Position numbers and translations under genes: made by a program. This document shows, in pieces, positions 599 through 23,378 of a stretch of DNA of 23,533 nucleotides. The first letter of the stretch is position 1. Each line of letters opens with the position of its first letter. Below the pieces are notes generated by a model. That model was not told the DNA's origin. It worked only from the letters and a program-made list of their open reading frames with translations, and searched no databases. The stretch comes from a virus: IMG/VR virus record IMGVR_UViG_3300031569_000042, positions 1-23,533 of that record, one strand, 5' to 3'.

Positions 599-2232
599 AC
601 AGTAGAGGCCCATGCTCTAAGTGTGGATCTAAAGATAATTTAGTTAAGTATAAAGACGGTCACGCTACCTGCTATTCTGTAGGCTGTGGTCACTTCATTA
701 AAGCAGGTGAATCAATGCACAATCAATCGACAGTAGTTCCTACCCCTCCGCGTAAAGAGGTAAAGCAGGAGGATCTAATCAAGGGCACTAAAGGCTCTAT
801 ACCAGACCGCAGGTTATCCCAAGATATTCTAGACAAGTTTGGCGTTACGATAGAGTATGACGCTAAAGGAGATATCACTAAACACCACTACCCGTACTAC
901 AACAGCGACAATAAGATTGTGGCCTTGAAGACAAGGGTAACTAAGTATAAGCAATTCTTTTGCAGTGGTAATCTAGGGGACGCAGGACTGTTCGGTCAGA
1001 ATGTATTTGAGGGTCGTGCTGGTGGACGCTATATAACGGTCACTGAAGGTGAGTTAGATGCCCTAGCAGTTAGTTCTATGTTTCACGGTAAATGGCCTGT
1101 AGTAAGCTTAAAGAACGGCTCAGGTAGTGCGGTGAAGGGAATCAAGGAATCACTTGAGTTTTTGGAGTCGTTTGATAGTGTCATACTGTGTATGGATCAA
1201 GATGATGCAGGTTCAGATGCGACTAAGAATATCGTAGACTTATTCTCACCTAACAAAGTCAAAGTAATGCAGATGCCTTTTAAAGATGCGTCTGAGATGT
1301 TGATGAAGGGTAAGGTTAAAGAGTTTACCGAGTGCTGGTGGTCTGCTAAACCTCATCGACCTGCTGGCGTAGTCTCTTTGTCTGATGCAGGTAACTGGGA
1401 TCTATTCGTAAAGCGAGGTACTGAAGAAGTCACGCCACTACCTAAAGCATTCGGTTCATTAAATGCCATGATGAATGGTGGTATTGCGGCTGGTGAAATT
1501 ACTGTACTAGGGGCGTTAACGTCTATCGGTAAGAGTACCGTAGTCTATAACCTAGTCTACGATATGTTGATGGAGTCTAATAAGCGTATAGGCTGTATTT
1601 TCCTAGAGGCTGATGTCGGTGAAACGATAGAGAAATTAATATCAGTACATATCGGTCAGAACATATCTAACGTACCTCAACCTGAACGAGACTACGACCA
1701 GTTACATAAGAAGTATTCGGAATTAGCTGATACAGATAAGTTACACATACTAGACCATCAAGGGGCACTAGAGGCTGATGAACTGTTCTCTAAGATGCGT
1801 TACATGGTTAAAGGGCTAGACTGTGATGTTCTTATACTAGATCCTCTACAGGCTGCTGTGACCTCCAATGAGAATGGAACCATAGATGCCTTTATGGATA
1901 AATGCCTTAAACTAGCTAAGGAAACTGGAGTTAGTATTATTGTAGTTAGTCACATGAGGAAACCTAGTGCTAAGGATGCACACGATGTAAACGAATATGA
2001 TATGAAGGGATCAGGATCTATTAACCAGATTGCATTCAACACTATCCTATTAAGCCGTGACAAATTAGCTGAAGATGAGTATGCTAGGAACTGTACTAAG
2101 ATCCAGCTAGTTAAATGTCGTAGGACAGGTAATACAGGCGTAGGTGGGTGGTTGTTCTATAACTCAGATACTAGCCGATTAGAGGCTGGTCAGGCCCCGA
2201 TAATACAGGAAACAAGTAATTATGACTTCTAA
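562..2232 (+). CDS. Fused DNA primase-helicase, T7 gp4 type
   Basis: This bifunctional replication protein of 556 aa synthesises primers and unwinds DNA at the phage fork. The N-terminal zinc-binding domain is C18-x2-C21 and C37-x4-C42. The TOPRIM primase core has TEGELDA (E162) and MDQDDAG (D212, D214, D215). After a linker, a DnaB/RecA-like helicase domain has Walker A GALTSIGKST (317-326), Walker B LILD (D427), and a KGSGSINQ segment typical of motif H4. Length is close to T7 gp4 (566 aa). The start lies inside the preceding gene and the end overlaps the polymerase ATG by 11 bases. An internal ATG at 715 (Met52), just after the zinc domain and preceded by AGGTGA, could make a helicase-only form like T7 gp4B; this is inferred. 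Confidence 0.96.
   Translation: MAINYSAGNAEVDSRGPCSKCGSKDNLVKYKDGHATCYSVGCGHFIKAGESMHNQSTVVPTPPRKEVKQEDLIKGTKGSIPDRRLSQDILDKFGVTIEYDAKGDITKHHYPYYNSDNKIVALKTRVTKYKQFFCSGNLGDAGLFGQNVFEGRAGGRYITVTEGELDALAVSSMFHGKWPVVSLKNGSGSAVKGIKESLEFLESFDSVILCMDQDDAGSDATKNIVDLFSPNKVKVMQMPFKDASEMLMKGKVKEFTECWWSAKPHRPAGVVSLSDAGNWDLFVKRGTEEVTPLPKAFGSLNAMMNGGIAAGEITVLGALTSIGKSTVVYNLVYDMLMESNKRIGCIFLEADVGETIEKLISVHIGQNISNVPQPERDYDQLHKKYSELADTDKLHILDHQGALEADELFSKMRYMVKGLDCDVLILDPLQAAVTSNENGTIDAFMDKCLKLAKETGVSIIVVSHMRKPSAKDAHDVNEYDMKGSGSINQIAFNTILLSRDKLAEDEYARNCTKIQLVKCRRTGNTGVGGWLFYNSDTSRLEAGQAPIIQETSNYDF
715..2232 (+). other. Possible internal start giving a short helicase form (4B-like)
   Basis: ATG 715-717 is in frame as Met52 of the primase-helicase and sits 10 residues after the last zinc-binding Cys (C42). 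AGGTGA at 705-710 lies 4 bases upstream, a usable ribosome binding site. In T7, gp4B starts at an internal Met64 just after the zinc domain and lacks primase activity. The matching position suggests the same two-form strategy here; it is unproven. Confidence 0.45.
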
Positions 2233-3955
2233 ATCTATAGTTCTGGACATCGAAGCTAATGACTTTAATCCAGACAAGATATGGTGTGTAGTCACCTTAG
2301 ACATCAATACTAAAACGTCTACCCAGTACGTCAATAATCTAGCCCAGTTAAAGACTGATTTGTTAGACGTTACTGAGATCATAGGCCACAACATACTAGG
2401 TTATGATATACCTGTATTGGAACGTCTATTAGGTATTGACTTCAGCAACATCAAACTAACCGATACTTTAGTCTTGTCTAGACTTGCAGATCCAGCGCGT
2501 CAGGGTGGGCATTCTCTAGCATCATGGGGACAGCGTTTAGGTTATCCAAAAGGTAAGTTCACTGACTTCAGTTATTATAGTGATGAGATGCTAGAGTATT
2601 GTATTACCGATACTGAAGTAAATTTATTCACCTATCGTAAGTTACTAAAAGAAGTTAAGGATTTTTCTGTAGAGTCTATCCAACTAGAGATGGACGTACA
2701 TAAAATCATAGCTGAACAGACCCGTAGTGGTTGGTTACTGGACGAAAAGAAAGCCTTTATATTGTTAGCTGAACTCAAAGAGAGCATGATGAATGCAGAA
2801 GCTACAGTCCGTAAACGCTTTACACCTTTGCCAGTATGGGTAGAAAAGAACTACCCTAAGAACCCACTAAAGAAAGACGGTACTGAAGCAGCCATCATGG
2901 GTAAGCATAGAGATCAAGGCTTTCATCATAACTCACAAGGCAGTTATGGTGTCTTTGAATACCCTATCTTTAACTTAGGTAGTCGCCAACAGATCGGACG
3001 TTACTTGATCCACTTTGGTTGGAAGCCTACTGAGTTTACTGAGACAGGATTACCTAAGATAGACGAGAAAGTATTAGAAGATGTAAACATACCTGAAGCA
3101 GTGATGATCAAAGAGTTTCTATTACTCCAGAAGCGCGTAGGAATGGTTCTAAGTTGGGTAGAGTCTGTAGCAGACGATGGCAGAGTACACGGCTACGTTA
3201 ATGCTATAGGCGCTCAAACAAACCGTATGACGCACAGCAGCCCTAATGTTGCCCAAGTCCCTGCATCATACAGCCCGTATGGTAAAGAGTGCCGTGAGTG
3301 CTGGATAGTGCCTAAAGGGTATAAGCTAGTTGGTTGTGACGCTTCTGGCCTAGAATTGAGAATGCTCGCCCACTACATGAATGATGAAGAGTACATCAGT
3401 CAGATTATAGACGGTGATATACATTCCTACAATCAGGAGATGGCTGGACTACCTTCTAGAGATCAGGCCAAGACAATGATATATGCTCTCTGCTATGGGG
3501 CTGGTGACGTTAAGATGGGCACTATAATCAATGGATCTGCCGCAGAAGGTAAGCAGCTAAAAGCCACTCTATTCAATAACATTCCTTCACTAGCTGACTT
3601 AATTACTAAGATTAAGAAAGCTTCTAACAGGGGATATTTGAAGGGCTTGGACGGTCGTAAAATCTGGGTTAGGTCTGAACACTCAGCCCCTAATTTTCTC
3701 TTACAGTCAGCAGGAGCGATTGTTATGAAAAAGGCACTTGTGTTATTATACAACAGTGCTAGAGAAGAAAAGCTAGACTTTACTTTTGTAGGTAACATCC
3801 ACGATGAGTATCAGACTCAAGTGCTGGAGGCACACTCAGAACGCTTTGGTGTATTGGCTGTAGAAGCTATCGTTAATGCTGGTATAGAGTTAAACATGAA
3901 CTGTCCATTGGACGGAGAATCTAAGATAGGGAATAATTGGTATGAGTGCCACTAA
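2222..3955 (+). CDS. DNA polymerase, family A (T7 gp5/Pol I type)
   Basis: This is the replicative polymerase with 3'-5' proofreading. The exonuclease domain shows DIE (D9, E11), GHNILGYDIP (D62) and YCITD (Y126, D130). The polymerase domain shows motif A DASGLELR (D373), motif B RDQAKTMIYALCYG (R413, K417, Y421, Y425) and motif C HDE (527-529). At 577 aa it is about 125 residues shorter than T7 gp5 (704 aa); the thioredoxin-binding insert of the thumb appears absent or much reduced, so processivity may not use host thioredoxin. Tyr421 aligns with T7 Tyr526 and E. coli Phe762, a residue tied to nucleotide selection. It overlaps both neighbours by a few bases, with AGGAA upstream of its ATG. 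Confidence 0.97.
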   Translation: MTSKSIVLDIEANDFNPDKIWCVVTLDINTKTSTQYVNNLAQLKTDLLDVTEIIGHNILGYDIPVLERLLGIDFSNIKLTDTLVLSRLADPARQGGHSLASWGQRLGYPKGKFTDFSYYSDEMLEYCITDTEVNLFTYRKLLKEVKDFSVESIQLEMDVHKIIAEQTRSGWLLDEKKAFILLAELKESMMNAEATVRKRFTPLPVWVEKNYPKNPLKKDGTEAAIMGKHRDQGFHHNSQGSYGVFEYPIFNLGSRQQIGRYLIHFGWKPTEFTETGLPKIDEKVLEDVNIPEAVMIKEFLLLQKRVGMVLSWVESVADDGRVHGYVNAIGAQTNRMTHSSPNVAQVPASYSPYGKECRECWIVPKGYKLVGCDASGLELRMLAHYMNDEEYISQIIDGDIHSYNQEMAGLPSRDQAKTMIYALCYGAGDVKMGTIINGSAAEGKQLKATLFNNIPSLADLITKIKKASNRGYLKGLDGRKIWVRSEHSAPNFLLQSAGAIVMKKALVLLYNSAREEKLDFTFVGNIHDEYQTQVLEAHSERFGVLAVEAIVNAGIELNMNCPLDGESKIGNNWYECH

Positions 3956-16360: not shown

Positions 16361-16500
16361 TATGACTTAGGTTTTTTATGGGTTAGAGGCTTACTAGAAG
16401 CAGTGTGTTTTGCACCTGTCATAAGTTTACCTGACGGATGCTTATGAGTCTTACCTGTGTATGCTTTACCATTCTTTAGATAATGTGTAACGCCTTTCAT
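16360..16500 (-). CDS. Small basic His/Lys-rich protein, 46 aa
   Basis: Read directly: ATG at 16500-16498, TAA at 16362-16360. The protein has GVTHYLKNGKAYTGKTHKHP and TGAKHTASSKPLTH, giving repeated TGxxH-type units and a strongly basic, His-rich composition. From memory, small phage proteins of this style occur near structural genes. Both junctions are TAATG overlaps, so it is linked to the 21-aa gene upstream and the 76-aa gene downstream. Binding to nucleic acid or metal is plausible from composition only. Confidence 0.72.
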   Translation of the reverse strand: MKGVTHYLKNGKAYTGKTHKHPSGKLMTGAKHTASSKPLTHKKPKS

Positions 16501-16574: not shown

Positions 16575-16850
16575 CTACCATTTTACCTTTGCTGACCAAT
16601 AGGCTGCACTGGTTTTACCTTTAGCTATGTTCTTACCGTGCCTCGCTTTAAAACTGGCTCTCTTAGCTTTCATTGCGTCTGACTCACCAGCTTTAGGTTT
16701 ACCAGCCGTTGATGCTCCCTTTTCGCCAAAGCGGATCATGCGATCCTTTCCATCATCTTTTATCAAGACAACGTGAGACTTCTTGCCTTTGGCAGATGCT
16801 TTTGGCTTGTTATAACCTGAGAACTTTTCACCTCTGTACTCTATGCTCAT
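16575..16850 (-). CDS. Conserved phage structural-region protein, 91 aa, basic
   Basis: Lys/Arg-rich protein with a first part of beta strands (HVVLIKDDGKDRMIRFGEKG), then STAGKPKAG, and a C-terminal part KAKRASFKARHGKNI, ending AAYWSAKVKW. I recognise this as a type often found in phage structural regions (patterns 'IRFG...STAG', 'RaSFkARH', 'SAAYWs.KvKW'). Its function is not known; a DNA or capsid contact role is a guess from charge. Its ATG overlaps the upstream stop by 4 bases (ATGA). Confidence 0.78.
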   Translation of the reverse strand: MSIEYRGEKFSGYNKPKASAKGKKSHVVLIKDDGKDRMIRFGEKGASTAGKPKAGESDAMKAKRASFKARHGKNIAKGKTSAAYWSAKVKW

Positions 16851-17170
16851 ACAATCGCTGCCCTTGCTGCTGCCCTAGCTGTAGTCACATCATCTGGCAC
16901 TGCTACACCTGTCTCAGCATGGCGAGTGATGTACCAATCGGTTGATGCTAAGTATGCTTGGCTGGTTGCGTTTAGTTCTGCTTGAGTGTTGGCTGCTATC
17001 TCTGCATCAGTGTACTGTGGGGCAGGAGTGTTACCCTCTGCTATCCACTGTAGTACATCTTGACAGTCTCGGTTGGCAGGGTCATTGGGTACGCCCATAG
17101 TGCCATTGACTAGCCAGCCAGAGTTTTGTAGTTTGCAGGAGGTTATCCATGCTGTTTGATTTTCAATCAT
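16847..17170 (-). CDS. Tail fibre assembly chaperone-like protein, 107 aa
   Basis: The sequence has SGWLVNGTMGVPNDP, DVLQWIAEGNTPAPQ, and a C-terminal STDWYITRHAETGVAVPDD followed by an Ala/Arg-rich helix. This fits small tail fibre assembly chaperones, which have an AxxxLxxTDWYvxR segment. I chose ATG 17170 (MIENQTAW) rather than the ATG at 17185, because CGGAG lies 7 bases before it and it falls just after the fibre gene stop. It follows the 376-aa fibre gene, its likely client. Confidence 0.78.
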   Translation of the reverse strand: MIENQTAWITSCKLQNSGWLVNGTMGVPNDPANRDCQDVLQWIAEGNTPAPQYTDAEIAANTQAELNATSQAYLASTDWYITRHAETGVAVPDDVTTARAAARAAIV

Positions 17171-17171
17171 G

Positions 17172-18302
17172 TTATAACTCCGCATTAAAGGTAGCGTGTA
17201 TACTAATAAATACAGTTTGGCTTACAGCCACTCCATTTGTGTAAAAATTACAACCAGTATTTGTTGAAGGGTGACTAACTGCATTAGAATAATTAGAACT
17301 ATCACCTATAAAACTATTTACAGTTCCAGTTATAGGATTATAAATTATAACAGTTGGTGCAGTTCTCATTTGGACAGGGAAATTAAAATTCCCTATATTC
17401 TGATAATTATATCCATTTGAAACTTCTCGTATACAAGTATCAGCATGGTTTCCACCAGCATACTGTCCAACCTTATAAGATGAACAATAATAACGCTGAC
17501 ACAACGCTAACTCTTCCCCGAAGCTCCGATGCTCAAAGTCAGTGCCTGAGCCAACCTCAAGCTGGACTCCTGCAATGTACCAATCATTAGAGGTGCTACT
17601 TGCAAGGTTAACCTGACTGTCTGCTAATACATTAGCTTGACTGTATGCAGCCCAACTTGTAGCCTGTGTTCCACTACTAAAGCCAGAGCCACCACCTAAC
17701 CAAAACCATAACCGCATACCCTCACCTGTGTCATTGTTGAGTGTGCCGCCTGTGTCACCTGCAAATGTTATCGTTTTATGTTCCCATGTATTGGCACTGC
17801 CAATTGTATAAGAACTCTCTATGTGCCTATTACCATCAGGGGAATAAAGACCTACAGTGTAGACTCCCGTTACAGTCCCACGAACCCAAAAAGATGCCGT
17901 TACAGATTTTGCTGTGGCTAAACCATACTGTAAATGTTGTAAGTTTTGTCCTTCCATCGCTTGTTGGTGGATAATAGATACACCAGAACTAGGAGAAGCA
18001 TTTGCTGTAGTGCAATCCCATTTACAAGAAGAGGCAAAACCAGAGGGTGATTCACTAGATTTAGAAACTGTAAATTCTGAGGTGTCATTTACACGAGTTT
18101 TCCAGCGATCAACAGAGGAATAAATGTCCGTTGTAAGAGCCGTTGCGCTTTCACTTCTTTGCCAAACTGTATAGTCGCCATTCAGAATCAAATTCTTCCT
18201 GCCAGCCCTAGCTGCGGTGTCTCCTGCTGTAATCGCAGAGGTGACTTCTGTTTGAGTAAACGTGACCTTATCAGCCGCTACTCTTGTTGCACTTTTAGTC
18301 AT
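17172..18302 (-). CDS. Tail fibre with carbohydrate-binding-type domain, 376 aa
   Basis: The protein has a short N-terminal linker (VAADKVTFTQTEVTSAITAG), then a domain starting GRKNLILNGDYTVWQR with VDRWKTR, ASFWVRGTV, a Trp/Gly-rich stretch and VQLEVGSGTDFEHRSFGEEL. This layout is typical of phage fibre receptor-binding modules with a carbohydrate-binding jelly-roll fold. A second region (residues about 280-376) is beta-rich and probably the tip. The start has GGAG in the end of the preceding gene, 3 bases before its ATG. A receptor-binding function is inferred from the family. Confidence 0.85.
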   Translation of the reverse strand: MTKSATRVAADKVTFTQTEVTSAITAGDTAARAGRKNLILNGDYTVWQRSESATALTTDIYSSVDRWKTRVNDTSEFTVSKSSESPSGFASSCKWDCTTANASPSSGVSIIHQQAMEGQNLQHLQYGLATAKSVTASFWVRGTVTGVYTVGLYSPDGNRHIESSYTIGSANTWEHKTITFAGDTGGTLNNDTGEGMRLWFWLGGGSGFSSGTQATSWAAYSQANVLADSQVNLASSTSNDWYIAGVQLEVGSGTDFEHRSFGEELALCQRYYCSSYKVGQYAGGNHADTCIREVSNGYNYQNIGNFNFPVQMRTAPTVIIYNPITGTVNSFIGDSSNYSNAVSHPSTNTGCNFYTNGVAVSQTVFISIHATFNAEL

Positions 18303-18305
18303 CGT

Positions 18306-18536
18306 CTACTCTCCTGCTGGCATCAATGCCTTTAGCGCATCCGCATCTGAGGCTGCATCCATACTTACTTGCAATGCTGCATCGTTGGTGCGAATGGTTG
18401 CCCGTGATGCTTCTGCTGCTTCACTCTCGGCAGGGATGGTGGCCTTAATGTCTAAGGGGGCAAACGCTGCGTTTCGTGCGGCTCGTCTTGCATCGTGTGC
18501 AATGACTTTGGCTTTTGTCATGTCTACTGTAATCAT
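18306..18536 (-). CDS. Small tail-cassette protein, 76 aa
   Basis: The protein is a helical, charged sequence: MITVDMTKAKVIAHDARRAA, then APLDIKATIP, then ASRATIRTNDAALQVSMDAA. I associate this pattern with small proteins near phage tail fibre genes, perhaps assembly chaperones. The start is the internal ATG at 18536, not the ATG at 18578, because it forms an ATGA overlap with the preceding stop and has GGAG 8 bases upstream. Lies between a chaperone-like gene and the large fibre gene. Confidence 0.65.
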   Translation of the reverse strand: MITVDMTKAKVIAHDARRAARNAAFAPLDIKATIPAESEAAEASRATIRTNDAALQVSMDAASDADALKALMPAGE

Positions 18537-18781
18537 TTCGGGTACTCCGTTTTGATGGCAGCGATAGCATCTTGCCATGTGGTTGTTGAGTTGATGAGGT
18601 CGTCATAGCGCATCTCATCTTGGTTGAGTGCTGCGTAAGCTGTTGCTCGTAAGTATGAGTAGGCTTGTGGGTCGTCAGGTAATGTCTCCGCATCTGCTGG
18701 TATTAAATGCGAGTACCATTCTTTAGGCGCATCATCTTCAAAAGCATAATAACCATCTGCACTGTCTTTAAAATGTAGCAT
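18533..18781 (-). CDS. XkdW-like tail assembly chaperone, 82 aa
   Basis: The N-terminal LHFKDSADGYYAFEDDAPKE and C-terminal AALNQDEMRYDDLINSTTTW followed by DAIAAIKTEYPK match the layout of short tail-fibre chaperones related to XkdW. These help fold or assemble neighbouring fibre proteins. Its ATG overlaps the upstream C1q-like gene by one base (TAATG) and its stop overlaps the next ATG (ATGA), so the neighbouring fibre proteins are probable clients. Assignment is by pattern, not search. Confidence 0.7.
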   Translation of the reverse strand: MLHFKDSADGYYAFEDDAPKEWYSHLIPADAETLPDDPQAYSYLRATAYAALNQDEMRYDDLINSTTTWQDAIAAIKTEYPK

Positions 18782-19275
18782 TACGAAATCCTCTCAATAA
18801 CAAACGCTGTACCTGCCCGACCTGTTGCCGTTGTTACTACCCCGTTACCTATATGTGCGCGTACAATGTCCCCAGCAGCAAACCTATAACTGACAGAAAC
18901 TTGATTTGGTATATTTAGGGCCGTTGTTTGTGTTACGGCTATGCGGCCTTCTGGGGGTGTGATGGAGTTTATGTATGTTGATAATTGGGTGGAGTTAACG
19001 CTAATTCCTGTCCAAGTGGAGGCATTAAACACTGAGATATAAGCAACGTTATAAACCCCTGCCGTATTGATAACAAATTTACCACCTAATGATGCTGAGT
19101 CAGTGTAAGTAATGTCCGAGCCTATTGATTGAACAGTATTGGCAAATCTTGCTATACGCGTGTTTGTTGATGGTAAACCAGTTACCGCCCCGTCTACATA
19201 TATTCTTGATTGAGAAAACTCCTTACTAACAGTAGCCGAATCAAGATTATCATCACCTCTAATTATGCTACTCAT
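18781..19275 (-). CDS. Tail fibre protein with C1q-like jelly-roll domain, 164 aa
   Basis: Residues 1-40 are a polar N-terminal segment (MSSIIRGDDNLDSATVSKEF). The rest has a C1q/TNF-like beta pattern: LGGKFVINTAGVYNVAYISV, RIAVTQTTALNI, VSYRFAAGDIVRAHIGNG and a closing AFVIERIS strand. Such domains form trimers at phage fibre tips and bind surface ligands. The N-terminal segment is reminiscent of the opening of the two sister proteins upstream, suggesting shared attachment to the tail. The start overlaps the previous stop by 4 bases (ATGA). Confidence 0.72.
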   Translation of the reverse strand: MSSIIRGDDNLDSATVSKEFSQSRIYVDGAVTGLPSTNTRIARFANTVQSIGSDITYTDSASLGGKFVINTAGVYNVAYISVFNASTWTGISVNSTQLSTYINSITPPEGRIAVTQTTALNIPNQVSVSYRFAAGDIVRAHIGNGVVTTATGRAGTAFVIERIS

Positions 19276-19484
19276 GCACCCACTCCATCCGTCAACGTAG
19301 CCTCATCAACTGTCCACGCATTCCGAAATACTCTGTCTGAAGGGACAACTGAGTCGTCCACAATCTTAAACTTGAGTCCTGTTGGTACGTCTTTCAAAGC
19401 AGTCTGTGCATCAGTTAAGGAACAGTTAGCTGCGGGGGTTATTACGGCTACACTGCCGTCTGTTTGTTGGTATATGATTTTCAT
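19272..19484 (-). CDS. Small tail-cassette protein, 70 aa
   Basis: The sequence MKIIYQQTDGSVAVITPAAN, then VDDSVVPSDRVFRNAWTVDE, ending LTDGVGA, is the type of short protein often seen beside phage fibre genes. It has predicted beta strands and no membrane segment. AAAGGA lies upstream of ATG 19484, and its stop overlaps the ATG of the C1q-like gene. Its function is unknown; an adaptor or chaperone role is possible. Confidence 0.7.
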   Translation of the reverse strand: MKIIYQQTDGSVAVITPAANCSLTDAQTALKDVPTGLKFKIVDDSVVPSDRVFRNAWTVDEATLTDGVGA

Positions 19485-19496
19485 TAGTTTGTTCCT

Positions 19497-19886
19497 TTAA
19501 TTTCCGAATACTAGAATGCTGTCGGTTCCATTTGTAATTTCATAATTTGCTCCATCTACTCCATTAGCCCTATAAAATTGAACAGAGGACGTTGTTGGAA
19601 TATTAGCGATGGAAAGCATACCCGACGCAGCTACACCCCCATGATGGTACGGTGTTCCTAAAGCAACGTAATTTGCGCTAGACATATTTACGGCAAAGTT
19701 AACAGTGAACACACCTGTACTATTATCAGTAACAGAACTGACGTTATAAGAGTCATTAATAACTACTGTGTTTTCTACAAAGTTAACCCAAGCCTTTGCC
19801 ATACGCTTATCTAACGCTGGAATACTAGGCTGAGTCGTTGTTGAGCCGTCTGAGTGCAGGAGGGTGTTTGCTTTGATTGTGGACAT
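19497..19886 (-). CDS. Tail protein with AWVNF-type domain (sister copy 2), 129 aa
   Basis: The protein has a short N-terminal segment MSTIKANTLLHSDGSTTTQP, then a domain starting KAWVNFVENTVVINDSYNVS and ending NGTDSILVFGN. It is closely related to the preceding gene: both have AWVNF, (D)S-x-NVSS(V/I)TD, and VTVNFA/VTFATQM-ANY. This domain is common in phage fibre proteins. The two genes are linked by TAATG. It probably forms a short fibre or caps the main fibre; receptor use is unknown. Confidence 0.78.
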   Translation of the reverse strand: MSTIKANTLLHSDGSTTTQPSIPALDKRMAKAWVNFVENTVVINDSYNVSSVTDNSTGVFTVNFAVNMSSANYVALGTPYHHGGVAASGMLSIANIPTTSSVQFYRANGVDGANYEITNGTDSILVFGN

Positions 19887-20266
19887 TATGCTTGGCCTCC
19901 TAAGACTATTATTGAAATCGTTGGAGCATCATAAAGCGAGTTATTTGCATAAACAGTATTATATCGACAACTGCTAGTAGTCGGATTGAACGAATCAAAG
20001 GGTTGTGCGATGCTTCTCTGGCTTCCTGTGGAAGCACCTGCCGATCCTCCCGATGCGTAATTAGCGTTAGCCATTTGTGTTGCAAACGTAACCGTGTAGT
20101 CACCCGAAGCATGATCAGTAATACTACTCACATTCTCACTGTCCCTAATAGCCACTGTACCTGTGCCATTAAAGTTCACCCAAGCCGTAGGTATTAGCTG
20201 CTGACCTTTAACAGTAGGTATGCCACCTGTGACGTTTGTTATATCGTTGCACTTAACTGTACTCAT
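19886..20266 (-). CDS. Tail protein with AWVNF-type domain (sister copy 1), 126 aa
   Basis: Its N-terminal segment MSTVKCNDITNVTGGIPTVK resembles that of the next gene, then AWVNFNGTGTVAIRDSENVS starts a beta-rich domain ending IIVLGGQA. I chose the ATG at 20266, which overlaps the fibre stop (ATGA), rather than the ATG at 20278, four codons earlier and inside the fibre gene. The long fibre gene lies directly upstream; this protein may sit on it or compete for it. The domain is common in marine phage fibre genes; exact role unknown. Confidence 0.78.
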   Translation of the reverse strand: MSTVKCNDITNVTGGIPTVKGQQLIPTAWVNFNGTGTVAIRDSENVSSITDHASGDYTVTFATQMANANYASGGSAGASTGSQRSIAQPFDSFNPTTSSCRYNTVYANNSLYDAPTISIIVLGGQA

Positions 20267-21696
20267 AAGACCACCCACGTACTTCCAGATGCTACTGTTA
20301 CTGTGTAGCCTGAGTTAATTGTAATTGGCCCTATGGTCATACCATTCTCAGTGCCAGCGAATGTAATGTTCTCTGCTATGACTTTGGAGTTGGTGCGAAT
20401 AACGCTGTTGGTTCCAAGTGACGGGCCTCCACCTACTAATCCAGTAAGCTGACTTCCATCAACGGCTGGTAATTTAGCTGTTCCATCTAACGCAACCAGT
20501 TTGTTAGCAGTTGTACCAACTTGTGAGTCGTCTAGCTTTGCATCAAGTAAACTGTCGGTCTGTGCTTGTGTATAGGTGTTAGCCACCACGAATGATTGGA
20601 AAGCAACTATGCGAACAATCGTGCCAACTACCGCCCCATCGTCTAGGACTACTGTAGTTCCGTTTGTCGCCACATAGTCAGCTTTAGGAATGTCTAAACC
20701 ACCATAAGTCACATGGATATTATTCGCTGTGTAACTGAGGGTCTGACCATTTACGTCTGCGCCTGAGAATGAAGTCTGTCCTGCGGTGGCGATATATTCG
20801 TAGGAATAAAGCGACACGTTGCCCGATGAACTAGCTGCTATCCAGTTAGCCCCGTCATACACTTGCATACCTGTGCCAGTTAGAAAGTACAGGTTGCCTA
20901 CGACTAAAGCATCCCCATCATTATCAGTCGATGGTTCAGATCCTTTAGCACCTAGATACTTGTCATCAAAATCATCGAATGCTGCGGCAGCAGAGGCGGC
21001 ACTATTGGCTGCGTTGGTAGCTGAAGTAGCTGATTCGGATGCTTTGGTGGTTGCTGTAGATGCTGATGAAGCCGCACCCGTAGCTGAGTTAGCAGATGCT
21101 GTGGCTGAGTTAGCCGAGTTAGTTGCACTTGTAGCTGCGTTGGTAGCTGAGGTACTGGCTTCAGAAGCTTTGGTAGTTGCTGTGCCAGCCTGAGTGGTAG
21201 CTAAAGTAACCTGTGCTTGTCCGTTAGTTGTAGCTAAGGAAGCTTGTGTAGTGGCTGTAGAGGCACTGTTAGCACTTGCTGTAGCTGAGTTAGCTGAAGC
21301 AGTGGCGCTATTAGCAGATGCAGTGGCACTGTTAGCTGAAGCAGTAGCAGAGTTAGCCGAGTTAGTGGCTGAGGTACTTGCTTCTGAGGCTTTAGTGCTT
21401 GCCGTAGTTGCAGAAGCAGCCGAGTCAGTAGCTGAACTAGCTGATGCCGTTGCTGAGTTACTTGATGCTGTAGCTGAGTTAGCAGAGGATGTAGCTGATG
21501 TAGCTGAGTTAGTCTCATTTACAGAAGCTGCGGCTGCGCTTGATACTACAGTATTGTATTTATCTATGTAGTCTTGAGTGGAAGCACCATCGTCTCCCTT
21601 TGGGCCCTGAGCGCCCCTTGTCGTTGCTGTATAGTCATCATCATCAATCCCTAACGGATTAGTGGATGACGAGTTCAAGCCTCTATCTAGTCCCAT
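20263..21696 (-). CDS. Long tail fibre with heptad-repeat stalk, 477 aa
   Basis: The N-terminal segment (residues 1-27) precedes a short collagen-like stretch, GAQGPKGDDG (28-37). Residues about 60-239 form a Ser/Ala/Thr/Asn stalk of SATASAN-type heptads, probably a triple-stranded shaft. A knob starts at FDDKYLGAKG (about 243), with VVGNLYFLTGTGMQVYDG and VTYGGLDIPKADYVATNGTT, and the protein ends GPITINSGYTVTVASGSTWV. The last 25 residues are a frequent fibre terminus. No T7 gp17-like head-binding domain is seen, so attachment may use the N-terminal 40 residues. AAGGT lies 8 bases before ATG. It is the main candidate adsorption fibre. Confidence 0.88.
   Translation of the reverse strand: MGLDRGLNSSSTNPLGIDDDDYTATTRGAQGPKGDDGASTQDYIDKYNTVVSSAAAASVNETNSATSATSSANSATASSNSATASASSATDSAASATTASTKASEASTSATNSANSATASANSATASANSATASANSATASANSASTATTQASLATTNGQAQVTLATTQAGTATTKASEASTSATNAATSATNSANSATASANSATGAASSASTATTKASESATSATNAANSAASAAAAFDDFDDKYLGAKGSEPSTDNDGDALVVGNLYFLTGTGMQVYDGANWIAASSSGNVSLYSYEYIATAGQTSFSGADVNGQTLSYTANNIHVTYGGLDIPKADYVATNGTTVVLDDGAVVGTIVRIVAFQSFVVANTYTQAQTDSLLDAKLDDSQVGTTANKLVALDGTAKLPAVDGSQLTGLVGGGPSLGTNSVIRTNSKVIAENITFAGTENGMTIGPITINSGYTVTVASGSTWVVL
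20980..21519 (-). repeat. Heptad (about 21-base) coding repeats of the fibre stalk
   Basis: The stalk encodes many SATASAN or close variants, with perfect SANSATA units at residues 112-146 and degraded ones elsewhere. At DNA level codons for Ala, Ser and Asn vary between units, so protein sequence is better conserved than DNA. The set makes the opposite strand look like an Ala/Val/Leu/Glu-rich frame, which is an artefact. Confidence 0.9.
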
Positions 21697-22517: not shown

Positions 22518-23378
22518 TTAGGTTGACGGAACAAGAATGCTAACACCAGCGTTGTCACGCAACTCTTTAACACCGTAGATAGTATCCGCAGTGAACAAGT
22601 CACCAAGATACTGCTGCTGGTATTGAGTCTGTGAACGAACACTCTGTTGCTCTGCGAGTACCAAAGCATCTTTGTGCAACATAACAGCTACACGGTTACT
22701 ACTGGCGGTAGGGCAAGCAGAAGATACAAATACTTCTACACCATACACATTACCAATCATACCCGTCTTAATAGCGTCACCACTACCAACAAAAGCTTGC
22801 TCAGTGAAACGTGCAATACCCAACAAGTCACTCTTAGCGACAGGAGGGATTACCAAAGAACGACCTGTCATAGGTACGTCATTGTTGTCCAAAACAAGCA
22901 TAAACTTACGGATACCAGCATCAGTCATGTCAGCAGCAGAACTACCGCCATCACCACCTAACTGAGTACCGCCATTTAAGGCAGGAACTAGACCGAAAAG
23001 ATCAGCGTCTACTTGAGTAGCTAGGGCATAACCTGCGTCATCAGTGTAGAACCTACGTAGAGAGGATAATGCTTGCTTCTCTACAATGTCTTCAATCAAA
23101 GTTGAATATTCATAGTGCTTGTTGATTAGAACTTGAATGTCTGCGGTTGCAGGAGAGTTAAGCACTACTTGGGTGCTTGCAGCTTTTGCGTTTGCAGCGC
23201 CACGACTAGGTGAAGGAATGTGAATTGAATCACCTTTCTTACCTACGTGACTCATACGAGTTACTAGATTAGCTAGTACAAGATTCTTCTTGTAGCCAGC
23301 GATTACTTCATCCGACCATAATTCGGGGATAAAGGCGGCTGCTGTTGAGCCTGTTACGTGATTAGTACCTAATGCCAT
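22518..23378 (-). CDS. Major capsid protein, HK97-fold type
   Basis: The 286-aa protein has the start motif MALGTNHVTGSTAAAFIPEL, WSDEVIAGYKKNLVLANLV, and GKKGDSIHIPSPSRGAA, a pattern typical of the N-arm and early core of podovirus major capsid proteins. Later blocks include RFYTDDAGYALATQVDADLF, RSLVIPPVAKSDLLG, and IGNVYGVEVFVSS, typical of the P and A domains. The C-terminus (DNAGVSILVPST) is intact. It follows the end of a probable scaffolding gene, the standard order. Translation likely starts at ATG 23378 with GGAG 9 bases upstream inside an inverted repeat. High expression is expected. Confidence 0.92.
   Translation of the reverse strand: MALGTNHVTGSTAAAFIPELWSDEVIAGYKKNLVLANLVTRMSHVGKKGDSIHIPSPSRGAANAKAASTQVVLNSPATADIQVLINKHYEYSTLIEDIVEKQALSSLRRFYTDDAGYALATQVDADLFGLVPALNGGTQLGGDGGSSAADMTDAGIRKFMLVLDNNDVPMTGRSLVIPPVAKSDLLGIARFTEQAFVGSGDAIKTGMIGNVYGVEVFVSSACPTASSNRVAVMLHKDALVLAEQQSVRSQTQYQQQYLGDLFTADTIYGVKELRDNAGVSILVPST

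Follow-up and report, generated by a model that had tools for sequence, protein, structure and literature searches.

The window analysed here is the whole of a 23,533-nucleotide stretch of viral DNA (positions 1-23,533 of IMG/VR virus record IMGVR_UViG_3300031569_000042). Its tail genes of interest form a single run on the minus strand, in the order F, A, B, a 70-residue protein (h70), C, two small proteins (h82 and h76), D and a fibre-assembly-like protein (g112) (Table 1). Open reading frames A and B, which the earlier note had singled out as tandem sister tail genes, were confirmed on this strand. F and A overlap in an ATGA sequence, as do h70 and C, and A and B overlap by one base. We refer to the positions of A, B and C as slots 1, 2 and 3.

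The long tail fibre F begins with a Gly-X-Y region, continues as a shaft of (SATASAN)n repeats and ends in a conserved C-terminal tail of about 52 residues (GGPSLGTNSVIRTNSKVIAENITFAGTENGMTIGPITINSGYTVTVASGSTWVVL), hereafter the F-tail. A can be subdivided into an N-terminal tag (residues 1-27; MSTVKCNDITNVTGGIPTVKGQQLIPT) and a domain characterized by an AWVNF motif (residues 28-126) with a variable part at about residues 71-120, and B into a tag (residues 1-31; MSTIKANTLLHSDGSTTTQPSIPALDKRMAK) and an AWVNF domain (residues 32-129). C is composed of the tag MSSIIRGDDNLDSAT and a beta-rich domain of putative C1q/TNF type. The codons that end A likely contain the ribosome-binding site of B, and both glycines and the glutamine that they encode are invariant among 32 slot-1 proteins. 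Searches of Pfam and PHROG returned no family match for h70, which from its position is a probable assembly helper.

Table 1. Features of the tail gene run, in window coordinates.
Feature	Coordinates	Strand	Basis
F, long tail fibre 5' of the putative array	20263..21696	-	phrog_38058 tail fiber, E 8e-49
A, putative slot-1 adhesin, 126 aa from ATG at 20266, starts MSTVKCNDITNV	19886..20266	-	phrog_11355, E 1.2e-18
Slot-1 tag coding stretch, codons 1-27	20186..20266	-	protein-level conservation
Last codons of A, GGA GGC CAA GCA, inside TTAGGAGGCCAAGCATAATG	19884..19903	-	read from sequence
B, putative slot-2 adhesin, 129 aa, starts MSTIKANTLLHSDG	19497..19886	-	phrog_11355, E 8.5e-17
Slot-2 tag/domain joint RMAKAW, from gene nt 86	19791..19801	-	blastn comparisons in other phages
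h70, small protein between slots	19272..19484	-	conserved in all mapped loci, 71-97% in relatives
C, slot-3 protein, 164 aa, starts MSSIIRGDDNLD	18781..19275	-	tag common to slot-3 proteins of many phages
h82, small assembly-chaperone-like protein	18533..18781	-	phrog_9114 (unknown function), E 1e-5; conserved position
h76, small assembly-chaperone-like protein	18306..18536	-	phrog_20196 (unknown function), E 3e-5; conserved position
D, further tail fibre, 376 aa	17172..18302	-	phrog_4492 tail fiber protein, E 5e-60
g112, tail-fibre-assembly-like	16847..17185	-	phrog_27919, E 5e-12; phrog_4912 tail fiber assembly, E 2e-7

A scan for promoters and terminators gave no clear excess over shuffled sequences. 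No inverted repeats of at least 18 nt were found between positions 16500 and 21800, giving no sign of invertible (shufflon- or Mu-like) fibre switching. At the DNA level, the tail region shares only short similar pieces with named phages. Elsewhere in the window, the DNA polymerase (2222-3955) is nearest to that of pelagiphage HTVC115P (49%) and the capsid protein (22518-23378) to those of cyanobacterial podoviruses (about 33%); judged by these sequence affinities, the genome is a mosaic.

Two sister proteins and a third with its own tag

The proposal that A and B share a domain and similar N-terminal tags was borne out by alignment. The local alignment of the two proteins scores 163, compared to 35.3±6.6 for shuffled versions of B, and that of their first 25 residues scores 35, compared to 15.8±3.3; in neither case did any of 1000 shuffles reach the observed score. 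Both proteins are members by score of PHROG 11355 ('tail fiber protein', a name that says nothing of tags, slots or mechanism), with matches spanning residues 15-122 of A and 8-98 of B. The earlier note had also read the start of C as a looser version of the same tag, and here the three N-termini part ways: those of A and B align above chance, whereas the scores of C against A and B were reached by 656 and 606 of 1000 shuffles, respectively. Profile-profile comparisons yielded the same picture, with the similarity between tags 1 and 2 reached by 1 of 3000 column shuffles, that between tags 1 and 3 marginal (105/3000) and that between tags 2 and 3 not significant (609/3000). On these comparisons tags 1 and 2 are homologous, while tag 3 is not demonstrably homologous to either and defines a separate conserved family, IRGDDN(F/W/L)D. 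A common origin that takes in all three tags and the SVIRTN motif in the F-tail was also considered and is suggestive only, at 105 to 609 of 3000 shuffles once the tag 1-tag 2 pair is set aside.

The description of C as C1q-like proved plausible but weak. C itself has no C1q match in Pfam at E <= 1 and no convincing match in PHROG or the PDB, and on the C1q profile its score was beaten by 4 of 999 shuffles. A relative carrying the same tag (L098) scores 29.5 bits against Pfam C1q, above the cut-off of 23.7, and a profile built from C, L095 and L098 matches cerebellin at E 1.8e-9, a result probably driven by L098 and not a proof for C. Among viral contigs, the module of C found one near-identical contig with the full module and another match that covers the tag only. 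Taken together, these sequence matches suggest that the module of C is probably C1q/TNF-like.

Tags and gene order across related phages

Two scans of a viral contig collection identified about 95 contigs with relatives of these genes, and we mapped gene order gene by gene in 26 loci, among them the window itself and L001, a sister with 98.9% identity to it. Slot 1 is followed by slot 2 in all 26. Wherever the contig extends far enough (one, L044, starts within slot 1, leaving no upstream gene visible), the gene 5' of slot 1 ends in the F-tail, whether it encodes a fibre or is a short ORF. Slot 2 is followed in one arrangement by a third AWVNF protein, tagged MAS(T/I)IRG(N/D/S)DNFDTVGSSN, and then h70; in the other, h70 comes first and is followed by a protein tagged IRGDDN(F/W/L)D or, in fewer cases, MAT(V/T)I(S/T)G. 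By its tag and place, C belongs to this third position. The mapped order is thus F-tail, slot 1, slot 2, helper/slot 3, helpers and fibre. The cultured Vibrio phages 1.052.A and 1.232.O present a matching order, with an F-tail gene, two AWVNF genes, a helper-like gene and an (I/V)RG-tagged protein.

Several of these contigs present variations on the same elements. The MAT(V/T)I(S/T)G form, often MATVISG(D/N)TGI(D/N)KVADG, replaces MATVIRGDDNFD after h70 in some phages (L018:6569-7441, L020:6986-7729, L023, L027, L031 and L037), and L037 carries both slot-3 tag forms, on two proteins. The F-tail (window 20263-20430) also ends separate ORFs of 80-100 residues, found in L009, L012, L013, L019, L026, L027, L031 and L043 and occurring twice per locus in several contigs; this tail may act as a fibre-end (docking) module that can be carried from gene to gene. 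Two further phage lineages (L047/L054/L066/L067/L071-L077 and L050-L052/L055/L116-L118/L122) have other slot-specific tags before tandem AWVNF domains, with MASNLVVDTLSKGAVTLNTDE and MTSSVVSDNFETSTGAIPTLGG, and MSTLKADTI, MSTIKANTLTGTS and MAGKIVADQLEHSTAGS, as examples.

The tags separate cleanly by slot. For each of 71 distinct slot proteins, the closest tag comes from the same slot (71 of 71); slots were originally assigned by tag motif, and the independent fact is the constant gene-order position of each motif. Tags from the same slot have a mean identity of 0.78 (slot 1), 0.85 (slot 2) or 0.92 (slot 3), compared to 0.24-0.32 for tags from different slots. Column identity in slot 1 is 0.7-0.9 for the tag and 0.06-0.2 for the variable part, and in slot 2 it is 0.74-0.94 and 0.09-0.26, respectively; within the domain, it is 0.4-0.8 in the first half and about 0.1 at residues 71-120. 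At codon positions 1, 2 and 3, identity in the slot-1 tag is 0.81, 0.90 and 0.61 (33 distinct DNAs), and in the slot-2 tag it is 0.89 at second and 0.65 at third positions. Since third positions have diverged and second positions have not, tags 1 and 2 are kept as protein. These sequence comparisons support position-specific tags and not one common tag.

Fold of the AWVNF domain and exchange of modules

To characterize the AWVNF domain, we predicted the structure of A with AlphaFold2 from an alignment of 54 sequences. The resulting model is an all-beta, beta-sandwich fold, with pLDDT values of 85-97 in the domain and 53-62 at residues 1-20; the low confidence of the tag in this monomer model fits a docking peptide. 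The best fold neighbour of the domain is the C-terminal domain of the phiAB6 tailspike (Z 7.8, rmsd 3.0 over 94 residues), and the list also contains the C-terminal domain of the cyanophage Pam1 tailspike (Z 7.5, rmsd 1.9 over 69), the AP22 fibre gp53 (Z 6.0), Helix H-type lectins (Z 5.6, rmsd 2.8-3.0 over 74-76 residues), R-pyocin fibre tips (Z 5.0-5.4) and, lower down, TNF/BclA-like entries at about Z 4, all of these values being below 8, where the tool warns that a common arrangement alone may be reflected, so that our reading leans on the coherence of the neighbour list. The nearest folds of A are thus fibre or spike tips (phiAB6, Pam1, AP22 gp53 and the R-pyocin fibre) and Helix pomatia agglutinin, at Z 5.0-7.8 and 10-16% sequence identity. 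By sequence, A has no convincing relatives in the PDB, none of the 54 alignment members matches the Pfam H-lectin family at E <= 0.1, and no Pfam family covers the AWVNF domain. The model of C was poor (pLDDT 49) and for this reason was left out of the fold search.

The domain also occurs outside small slot proteins. Predicted viral structures containing it include long tail fibres (Syn5, ACG-2014f). In L076:5041-6318, it lies C-terminal to a Major tropism determinant N-terminal domain (Pfam PF18454, 40 bits) and occupies the place of the receptor-binding domain of Mtd. Elsewhere, six to seven tandem proteins of about 370 residues each carry an AWVNF domain (L068/L069:422-8538 and L062:4090-10756); these large arrays have short variable N-termini such as MREFLLNKIKATGTT, and the one protein scanned from them (L068:422-1531) also contains a concanavalin-like (Laminin_G_3) domain.

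Comparison of phages with near-identical flanks (L019/L041/L043 and L002/L018) reveals module replacement: across 3.9-8.8 kb outside the slots their DNA is about 95-97% identical, and the variable parts are only 21-29% identical, with tags at 70-90%. Modules have also moved between slots. The slot-2 modules of L018 and L009 are 98% and 96% identical in their variable part to the slot-3 module of L026, and those of L019 and L104 match slot 3 of L037 at 83% and 87% identity, while the tags in these four pairs are 25-28% identical. In blastn alignments of all four pairs, homology begins at nt 86 of the slot-2 gene and nt 68 of the slot-3 gene, with 86-96% identity beyond, and this common start point is the (R)(M/L)AKAW joint. 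The joint lies at a domain border, since the ordered domain in the A model starts at residue 25-28.

The earlier note had envisaged a common attachment tag with exchangeable C-terminal domains. The exchangeable domains are found: besides the cross-slot transfers, tag 3 precedes about 11 C-terminal clusters without mutual match at E 1e-3 (30 proteins), including AWVNF domains (six loci), a Pfam C1q domain (L098) and several unnamed ones, with distant homology possible among some of them. The common tag is not, its place being taken by slot-specific ones.

A proposed tail-tip array, its alternatives and known systems

A, B and C probably occupy three slots in an array of tail-tip adhesins, and each would combine an address tag with one swapped beta-sandwich receptor-binding module. 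What is observed of this array is the homology, the slot-specific tags, the gene order, the variable modules, the cross-slot transfer at a fixed joint and the fold model. Each slot protein would start with an address tag about 12-31 residues long, followed by a compact beta-sandwich receptor-binding module, which in A and B would be an H-type-lectin- or fibre-tip-like domain. The slot proteins would be made in order behind F by coupled translation, and each tag would dock its module at its own place, either on the distal end of the fibre, where the F-tail may serve as docking site, or on a neighbouring slot protein, with the small inter-slot proteins assisting. An equal docking mode for C is a guess, because the comparisons above do not establish homology of tag 3 with the other two tags. 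The docked modules, probably trimers, would bind a receptor, probably a surface glycan, and all slot proteins would be present on one virion. Homologous recombination at the tag/domain joint would bring in a new module and leave the tag in place, so that receptor specificity would change without any change in assembly. The occurrence of both slots in 26 of 26 loci, the predicted coupled translation and the absence of inverted repeats argue for simultaneous expression of the slot genes.

The most serious competing explanation, although an unlikely one, is that a virion carries a single slot protein, with A, B and C competing for one fibre end. The homology of tags 1 and 2 and the derivation of the modules from one family would be consistent with such competition, but alternatives for one site should swap tags as well as modules, and the tags remain distinct by slot in all phages in spite of module movement between slots 2 and 3. 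Every mapped locus also keeps both slots, a further point against it, and without inverted repeats there is no sign of invertible switching. We regard as improbable a role for A and B as chaperones of fibre-tip assembly, or as transient caps that help the fibre fold and later depart, with variation that tracks the fibre and not the host receptor. Small genes directly 3' of a fibre gene do encode such caps in Alteromonas phages A5 and V22 (PMC10579305). Co-variation with the fibre would, however, predict the reverse of what is seen, namely a conserved F-tail beside hypervariable A and B modules. The A5 gp9 and V22 gp27 chaperones, moreover, are described as alpha-helical bodies with beta-hairpin tentacles, absent from the all-beta A model, a sandwich resembling fibre tips; the AWVNF domain also ends full-length fibres, and other small genes of the cluster suit a helper role better.

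Two simpler accounts appear very improbable. If A and B were merely a recent tandem duplication, the tag would be the undiverged end of the copy, in keeping with homologous neighbours that have common N- and C-terminal blocks. Each slot, however, has own-tag orthologues across many contigs, which makes the duplication older than the lineage and refutes this as a full account, and the tags are under purifying selection. Just as hard to sustain is conservation of the 5' ends as DNA only, as a recombination joint or translation signal with no protein tag: the C-terminal GGQA of A does double as the likely ribosome-binding site of B, and the joint is situated at the conserved end, but in both tags third codon positions stand at 0.61-0.65 against 0.89-0.90 for second positions.

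A broader form of the array reading is possible, though somewhat less likely than not: aquatic phages would widely share a design whose fibre tip displays at least three different small adhesins at once, each with its own tag of 12-31 residues, and in which modules would move freely between phages and slots via one short joint. How phages of uncultured marine bacteria track host surfaces that change rapidly is usually described only in terms of 'variable tail-fibre islands'. In the loci compared here, this variability takes the form of a simple grammar of exchangeable modules with fixed address tags, joint and gene order. Such an array would allow a change of target without rebuilding the tail, and it would make the constant-diversity idea testable, since metagenomes allow the modules of each slot to be counted. 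A further benefit is a set of short peptides as docking candidates, open to test in the cultured Vibrio phages that have the matching arrangement. If true, the broader reading would amount to a naturally occurring plug-in system for receptor binding in which the docking tags are unusually short.

Modular tail fibres and receptor islands of marine phages have been described (PMC3909814, PMC7468147, PMC10684548), and tail fibre and C1q genes vary among near-identical marine and cryoconite phage genomes (PMC3909814, PMC7468147); the relevant passages of these two metaviromic-island papers treat variability of whole genes or domains, and not slot-specific tags or cross-slot transfer. A limited literature search returned no description of either for such small fibre proteins. 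Puniceispirillum phage HMO-2011 has a comparable cluster, containing small 'putative tail fiber' genes of AWVNF type, an F-tail-like protein and a C1q protein. Its tags MSTLKADTI, MSLIKTNAI and MASVLKVENI precede different domains, with MSxLK-type tags before AWVNF, 'VLQVV' and Pfam-C1q domains, but the tags are other ones, the arrangement is doubled into two cassettes and chaperone-like genes are interleaved differently. Our literature search found no published tag/slot dissection of HMO-2011-type clusters.

In the Ackermannviridae, conserved N-terminal domains of the tailspikes assign their place, while C-terminal domains recombine, even between tsp4 and tsp5 within one phage (PMC11414711). 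The proposed array resembles TSP1-4 of this family (kuttervirus CBA120/S117) in its tandem receptor-binding genes, conserved slot-specific N-termini, variable C-termini and exchange between genes. The Ackermannviridae proteins recognise polysaccharides and have N-terminal structural domains (anchor, XD, TD); A, B and C gave no Pfam match to the gp10-like XD/TD domains, for which tags of 12-31 residues are too short. Unlike those tailspikes, the proteins described here comprise about 120-170 residues, combine a short tag with a lectin-like module and accompany a separate long fibre. Without claiming membership of that family, we suggest by analogy that the array would work as the Ackermannviridae complex does.
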